Assembly (NCBI GenBank): GCA_903920145.1
Contig: CAIXKV010000218.1
Location: 1-58,125, forward strand
Length of the DNA: 58,125 bases
Direction of reading: 5' to 3'
Origin: an uncultured Rhodospirillales bacterium
Lineage (GTDB): Bacteria; Pseudomonadota; Alphaproteobacteria; Azospirillales; Azospirillaceae
The translations under genes and the position numbers were made by a program. Below are positions 20,173 to 20,367 of this stretch, in pieces. The first letter of the stretch is position 1. Every line of letters starts with the position of its first letter. The notes under the pieces are model-generated. The model was given only the letters and a program-made list of their open reading frames with translations, made no database searches and was not told the origin of the DNA.

Positions 20173-20187
20173 GCACTAACCATGCCA
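20173..20187 (-). promoter_or_regulatory. sigma-54 promoter of vnfDGK
   Basis: Minus strand TGGCAT-N5-GTGC with exact GG-N10-GC spacing, 85 bases from the vnfD start and facing away from 20353-20367. Confidence 0.75.
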
Positions 20188-20265
20188 AGTCTCGAAAATG
20201 CCCCGGAGTCAAGGGTTCTGCGGAGAAACGGCCGAACTTGGTTCGGTCGTGGCCATTGGCCTGAT

Positions 20266-20279
20266 GTTCCGTTCGGTAC
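20266..20279. promoter_or_regulatory. VnfA-like activator site, GTTC-N6-GTAC
   Basis: On the minus strand this reads GTAC-CGAACG-GAAC, which fits the GTAC-N6-GAAC form I recall for the Azotobacter VnfA site. It lies midway between the two sigma-54 promoters (79 and 74 bases away). A second partial dyad, GTAC-N6-GTGC, is at 20296-20309 and a lone GTAC at 20330. Confidence 0.65.
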
Positions 20280-20352
20280 GATCGCGCGGGCAAGAGTACC
20301 GATTGGTGCGCCGTCGGAAGCCACAGGCGGTACTTTAGCGGGAAAGGTGCTT

Positions 20353-20367
20353 TGGCACGGCCGTTGC
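20353..20367 (+). promoter_or_regulatory. sigma-54 promoter of the NifX-glyoxalase gene
   Basis: TGGCAC-GGCCG-TTGC, an exact consensus match, 35 bases before the start codon at 20403. Confidence 0.9.

Follow-up and report, generated by a model that had tools for sequence, protein, structure and literature searches.

The analyzed stretch of 58,125 nucleotides (the window) is the whole of contig C218 from the 4.26 Mb genome of an uncultured Rhodospirillales bacterium. It contains the genes vnfD, vnfG and vnfK on the reverse strand and, divergently oriented to vnfD, a gene encoding a fusion of a NifX-type domain with a glyoxalase domain, which is followed by a gene for a small Nif11-like protein. 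The features of this locus are, in order of position:

16929-18320, reverse strand: vnfK (TIGR02932, 906 bits against a cut-off of 874)
18332-18670, reverse strand: vnfG (TIGR02930, 174 bits against a cut-off of 142)
18670-20088, reverse strand: vnfD (TIGR01860, 977 bits against a cut-off of 823)
20172-20187, reverse strand: sigma-54 promoter of vnfDGK, TGGCATGGTTAGTGCT (14.6 bits; predicted start at about 20161)
20266-20279, forward strand: VnfA-type site 1, GTTCCGTTCGGTAC (GTTC-N6-GTAC; 8 of 8 positions of the VnfA1 motif)
20296-20309, forward strand: VnfA-type site 2, GTACCGATTGGTGC (GTAC-N6-GTGC; 7 of 8 positions of the VnfA1 motif)
20353-20368, forward strand: sigma-54 promoter of the fusion gene, TGGCACGGCCGTTGCC (16.0 bits; predicted start at about 20379)
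20403-21209, forward strand: NifX-glyoxalase fusion gene (268 amino acids; PF02579 at residues 28-120, PF00903 at residues 139-261)
21393-21590, forward strand: gene for the Nif11-like small protein, 3' of the fusion gene (65 amino acids; TIGR03798 above cut-off, PF07862)

The fusion gene and the nif11-like gene are separated by a spacer (21210-21392) that is one copy of a dispersed repeat. This repeat is about 150 bp long and has 58 matches in the genome, several of them inside the window. The Nif11-like protein is strongly conserved, copies with 52-78% identity being encoded in about 35 vnf loci including that of Azotobacter vinelandii, where the copy sits downstream of phosphonate-type transporter genes. 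A phosphonate-type ABC transporter is also encoded in the window at 2080-4597; its genes are similar to those that follow vnfDGK in A. vinelandii, and it is a candidate vanadate transporter.

Six sigma-54 sites with at least 14 bits were found in the window against 1.5 expected, and two of these six strong sites, TGGCATGGTTAGTGCT and TGGCACGGCCGTTGCC, lie between the start codons of vnfD and the fusion gene. Both promoters have a -24/-12 element, that of vnfD with GTGC in place of TTGC. For comparison, a set of 30 alphaproteobacterial loci was used, made up of 29 loci retrieved by a VnfD search together with the window. Both sigma-54 promoters are present at matching places in all 30 loci, by which the pair of divergent promoters proposed in the original prediction is borne out.

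Between the promoters, this prediction had placed a single GTTC-N6-GTAC site. This site is present (20266-20279), but it is accompanied by a second one (20296-20309), whose start is 30 bp away from that of the first. Both sites are conserved. The motif of VnfA1 from A. vinelandii is GT(T/A)C-N6-GTAC, and most promoters of its regulon have two motifs at a similar spacing (PMC9542535). In a de novo count of dyads in the 30 promoter-to-promoter regions, GTTC-N6-GTAC ranks first (20 of 30 regions) and GTAC-N6-GTGC second (16 of 30). With a two-box model, an array is found in every region, and 28 of the 30 outscore each of 300 shuffled controls, although these scores are inflated by fitting the model to the same 30 regions. 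The best arrays have a site offset of 29-31 in 30 of 30 regions in a search that was restricted to offsets of 28-32. When a fixed consensus and unrestricted offsets were applied to a wider set of 76 vnf loci, the offsets also peaked at 29-31, with 88 pairs where Markov sequence gave 4. The tandem model, which was trained partly on this very locus, reaches a score of 48.2 in the window, whereas the highest score in 30 Markov windows was 14.5.

A lone GTTC-N6-GTAC, with only eight fixed bases per site, is weak evidence, and the sigma-54-like and GTAC-like matches could in principle be chance occurrences that have no function. However, the arrangement is conserved over the 30 loci, which are mutually related and thus not independent tests, and GTWC-N6-GTRC-N16-GTWC-N6-GTRC occurs without mismatch only once in the 4.26 Mb genome, namely as the array at 20266-20309. 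The probability of mere chance matches is therefore regarded as close to nil.

The position of the array relative to the promoters differs from what had been expected. The distances of 79 and 74 bases that had been given for the single site are right within one base for site 1 alone, which lies 78 bases from the vnfD promoter and 73 bases from the fusion promoter. The whole array, however, lies 78 bases from the vnfD promoter and 43 bases from the fusion promoter and is thus closer to the latter. The distance between array and fusion promoter is 40-44 bases in 16 of the 30 loci (the mode) and otherwise mostly 30-32, 52, 62, or 73. These values correspond to helical steps (Rbar 0.65 at 10.5 bp), a phase test that overstates significance because several of the loci are close relatives. 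The distance to the vnfD promoter, in contrast, ranges from 42 to 229 bp over the 30 loci and is without phase (Rbar 0.14). As only the fusion-side distance is held, equal spacing from one central site was rejected as evidence of a shared enhancer.

As the geometry is kept on the side of the fusion promoter alone, vnfD could depend less on the array or use another site. The array might then be the enhancer of the fusion promoter only, which ancestrally would have been a fusion-vnfH promoter, with vnfDGK being activated from elsewhere or weakly from the array. The helical phasing on one side and its absence on the other agree with such a one-sided enhancer, as does locus L006, in which the long intergenic region has two arrays, one near each promoter. 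Most loci, however, have one strong array between the promoters, the conserved sigma-54 promoter of vnfD needs an enhancer, and a scan of the window revealed no other tandem array within reach. In addition, the distances of vnfD-upstream pairs in other bacteria are variable, too, being mostly 78-189 bases, so that vnfD appears to tolerate distance variation. Exclusive action on the fusion promoter is therefore considered improbable. Since a second strong array is absent in most loci, we infer from the sequence comparison that one array probably serves both promoters. With one strong array in most regions and a vnfD sigma-54 promoter kept everywhere, sharing is the simplest reading.

The gene context of the fusion gene points in the same direction. 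In nearly all of the vnf loci examined from Alphaproteobacteria, the gene is oriented divergently to vnfD. Exceptions are L074, which has the glyoxalase half only, and L052, which has the NifX half only; in the Rhodospirillales-type loci L049 and L050, neither half was seen. A nif11-like gene follows the fusion gene in 20 of 28 loci, and vnfH is located directly downstream of the fusion gene on the same strand in 12 of 28. Among 59 relatives, including the source genome, the full-length fusion is encoded in exactly the four genomes that carry vnfD. A search of plasmids for the fusion gave no record covering 80% of it. That the fusion gene belongs to the vanadium regulon and that a VnfA-type enhancer is shared, as had been predicted, is strongly supported by sequence conservation, by the operon context, by the co-occurrence with vnfD, and by the VnfA1 motif known from the literature, even if the argument from equal spacing has to be abandoned. 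Judging from this genomic evidence, membership of the fusion gene in the vanadium nitrogenase system is highly probable.

Apart from one NifA (contig C223), the genome encodes one activator of the VnfA/AnfA type (contig C79). NifA works with sigma-54 promoters, and a NifA-type site is found upstream of vnfH, so that NifA instead of VnfA might activate the fusion gene, whose NifX-type domain would then serve the molybdenum system. The NifA site TGT-N10-ACA, however, is absent from the promoter-to-promoter interval in 30 of 30 loci, for which reason NifA was rejected as the activator of this interval, and relatives without vnfD also lack the full-length fusion. Control of the fusion gene by NifA is thus very improbable.

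The C79 activator is 72% identical to AnfA and 65% identical to VnfA1 of A. vinelandii, the latter value being taken from tblastn rows of the C79 reading frame. In a tree that does not include five alphaproteobacterial rows that were out of frame, AnfA from A. vinelandii and Rhodobacter falls inside the alphaproteobacterial group, and hence within the clade of the C79 activator, apart from the VnfA group of Gamma- and Betaproteobacteria. The alphaproteobacterial AnfA consensus, TAC-N6-GTA (PMC7294313), is contained in these sites, so that the motif cannot separate VnfA from AnfA. Both the protein and the sites would thus be consistent with an AnfA-type activator and a system that is run as an AnfA regulon. 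However, the source genome encodes no AnfD over cut-off, the C79 activator gene adjoins vnfE/N-like genes, and its orthologues are found within the vnf clusters of many relatives. The choice between VnfA and AnfA is therefore a matter of naming more than of function, and a genuine AnfA regulon is held to be quite unlikely. The C79 activator is provisionally named VnfA on account of its gene neighbors, not of the tree.

The two halves of the fusion protein were compared with known structures. The glyoxalase half aligns to GloA of Escherichia coli (1f9z), and the residues H142, E193, H212, and E260, which are at least 95% conserved in the fusion family, fall on the four metal ligands, which we take to be H5, E56, H74, and E122 in GloA. 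The NifX-type half matches 1p90, an entry titled as a hypothetical protein that is presumably the NafY core, and a NifX structure. Scores for TIGR00068 (114.9 bits, cut-off 120), PRK10291.1 (102.4, cut-off 246), and the NifX family TIGR02663 (40.4 bits, cut-off 112) stay below the cut-offs, and the best match of the NifX-type half is the C-terminal region of NifB with 72.6 bits, also below cut-off. As both halves are below the equivalog cut-offs, the protein was filed neither as a lactoylglutathione lyase nor as NifX. By its sequence, the glyoxalase half is a predicted glyoxalase fold with a metal site rather than a GloA, and the NifX-type half is assigned as a PF02579 domain only. A structure model has a mean pLDDT of 83 and a pTM of 0.53, values that lend credibility to the individual domains but not to their placement relative to each other.

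Thus, the C-terminal half resembles bacterial glyoxalase I (GloA; 1f9z, 4mtq) in keeping all four metal ligands, and the N-terminal half resembles the cofactor-binding proteins of the NafY/NifX type (1p90, 9ian). In contrast to these proteins, both domains are joined in one polypeptide here, and no PDB chain matched across the full length of the fusion. A conserved stretch of the fusion, PRPPRAQRHG, also differs from the corresponding segment of GloA. Literature searches for a NifX-glyoxalase protein with vnf genes, for vnfD or vnfDGK with glyoxalase, and for vanadium nitrogenase with lactoylglutathione lyase returned none in a body of literature that is incomplete and leaves out most subscription journals; four papers in which NifX, glyoxalase and nitrogenase occur together seem from their titles to be unrelated. 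The protein is apparently undescribed. Its most likely role, at a probability somewhat short of even, is that of an accessory protein in the synthesis or loading of the vanadium cofactor. A more specific proposal, which is rather unlikely as it stands, is that it is an undescribed alphaproteobacterial maturation factor of vanadium nitrogenase, in which the glutathione-linked metal chemistry of glyoxalases would act on vanadium or on a cofactor held by the NifX domain. The VnfA1 regulon of A. vinelandii includes a gene for glutamate-cysteine ligase (PMC9542535), which would fit a role of glutathione.

Further units of the VnfA type are present in the window. The vnfH gene, which is located apart from the fusion gene within 144-1148, has its own sigma-54 promoter. 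The respective features are:

1132-1147, reverse strand: sigma-54 promoter of vnfH, TGGCACGAGGTTTGCT (18.8 bits, the best in the window)
1312-1355, reverse strand: weak tandem VnfA-type pair upstream of vnfH (30 bp offset; both sites with 7 of 8 positions)
6617-6661, forward strand: second bidirectional tandem VnfA-type pair (31 bp offset)

The upstream region of vnfH also contains one NifA-type TGT-N10-ACA site at 1230-1245. With this site and the weak VnfA-type pair, vnfH may answer to both a VnfA-type activator and NifA. Another strong sigma-54-like site (1409-1424, forward strand) is directed away from vnfH and is not followed by any clear gene. The pair at 6617-6661 is flanked by sigma-54 sites at 6558-6573 (reverse strand) and 6704-6719 (forward strand), which are 43 and 42 bases off, respectively. 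On one side of this unit (6558-6719) is a DUF364/DUF4213 gene and on the other an operon encoding ATP-grasp-like, solute-binding, CobW-like, ABC, and nitroreductase proteins, and the last four genes of this operon resemble the VnfA1-dependent operon Avin_02430-02400.

Taken together, the interval 20172-20368 is very probably an enhancer-promoter unit of the vanadium-nitrogenase regulon that acts in both directions, as judged from its motifs and their conservation. In the absence of molybdenum, the VnfA-type activator encoded on C79 would bind the two tandem sites cooperatively. The bound activator could then reach sigma-54 RNA polymerase at either promoter via DNA looping, and vnfDGK would be switched on in one direction and the fusion gene together with the nif11-like gene in the other. 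The second operon of many relatives additionally contains vnfH, so that the unit would couple the dinitrogenase operon to the reductase operon there. Binding by the C79 activator, the response to molybdenum, and any role of the fusion protein are what we infer here. Regulation, operon context, and co-occurrence thus link a conserved NifX-glyoxalase protein with vanadium nitrogenase, and a possible new accessory factor of this enzyme becomes directly testable.

Several elements of this unit are known from other diazotrophic systems. In Rhodobacter capsulatus, the AnfA sites of anfH consist of two dyads with TAC-N6-GTA that are recognized by a related activator (PMC7294313). Unlike the unit described here, these sites belong to the promoter of an operon for iron-only nitrogenase. 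The VnfA1 regulon of A. vinelandii shares the site motif, the two sites per promoter, the sigma-54 promoters, and their divergent arrangement. Site pairs exactly 30 bp apart are located upstream of both vnfH and vnfD in this organism. For Avin_02430/02450 and Avin_47110/47120, a single VnfA1 peak has been reported between divergent sigma-54 promoters (PMC9542535). In contrast to A. vinelandii, the second site of the array ends in GTGC here. Furthermore, vnfH is located upstream of vnfD on the same strand in A. vinelandii (locus L027), where no NifX-glyoxalase gene was found, whereas the fusion gene is the partner of vnfD in the window. The regulation is accordingly a new instance of an arrangement already published for A. 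vinelandii, by which the tandem VnfA-type enhancer known from Azotobacter is extended to the Alphaproteobacteria, whose activators group close to AnfA.
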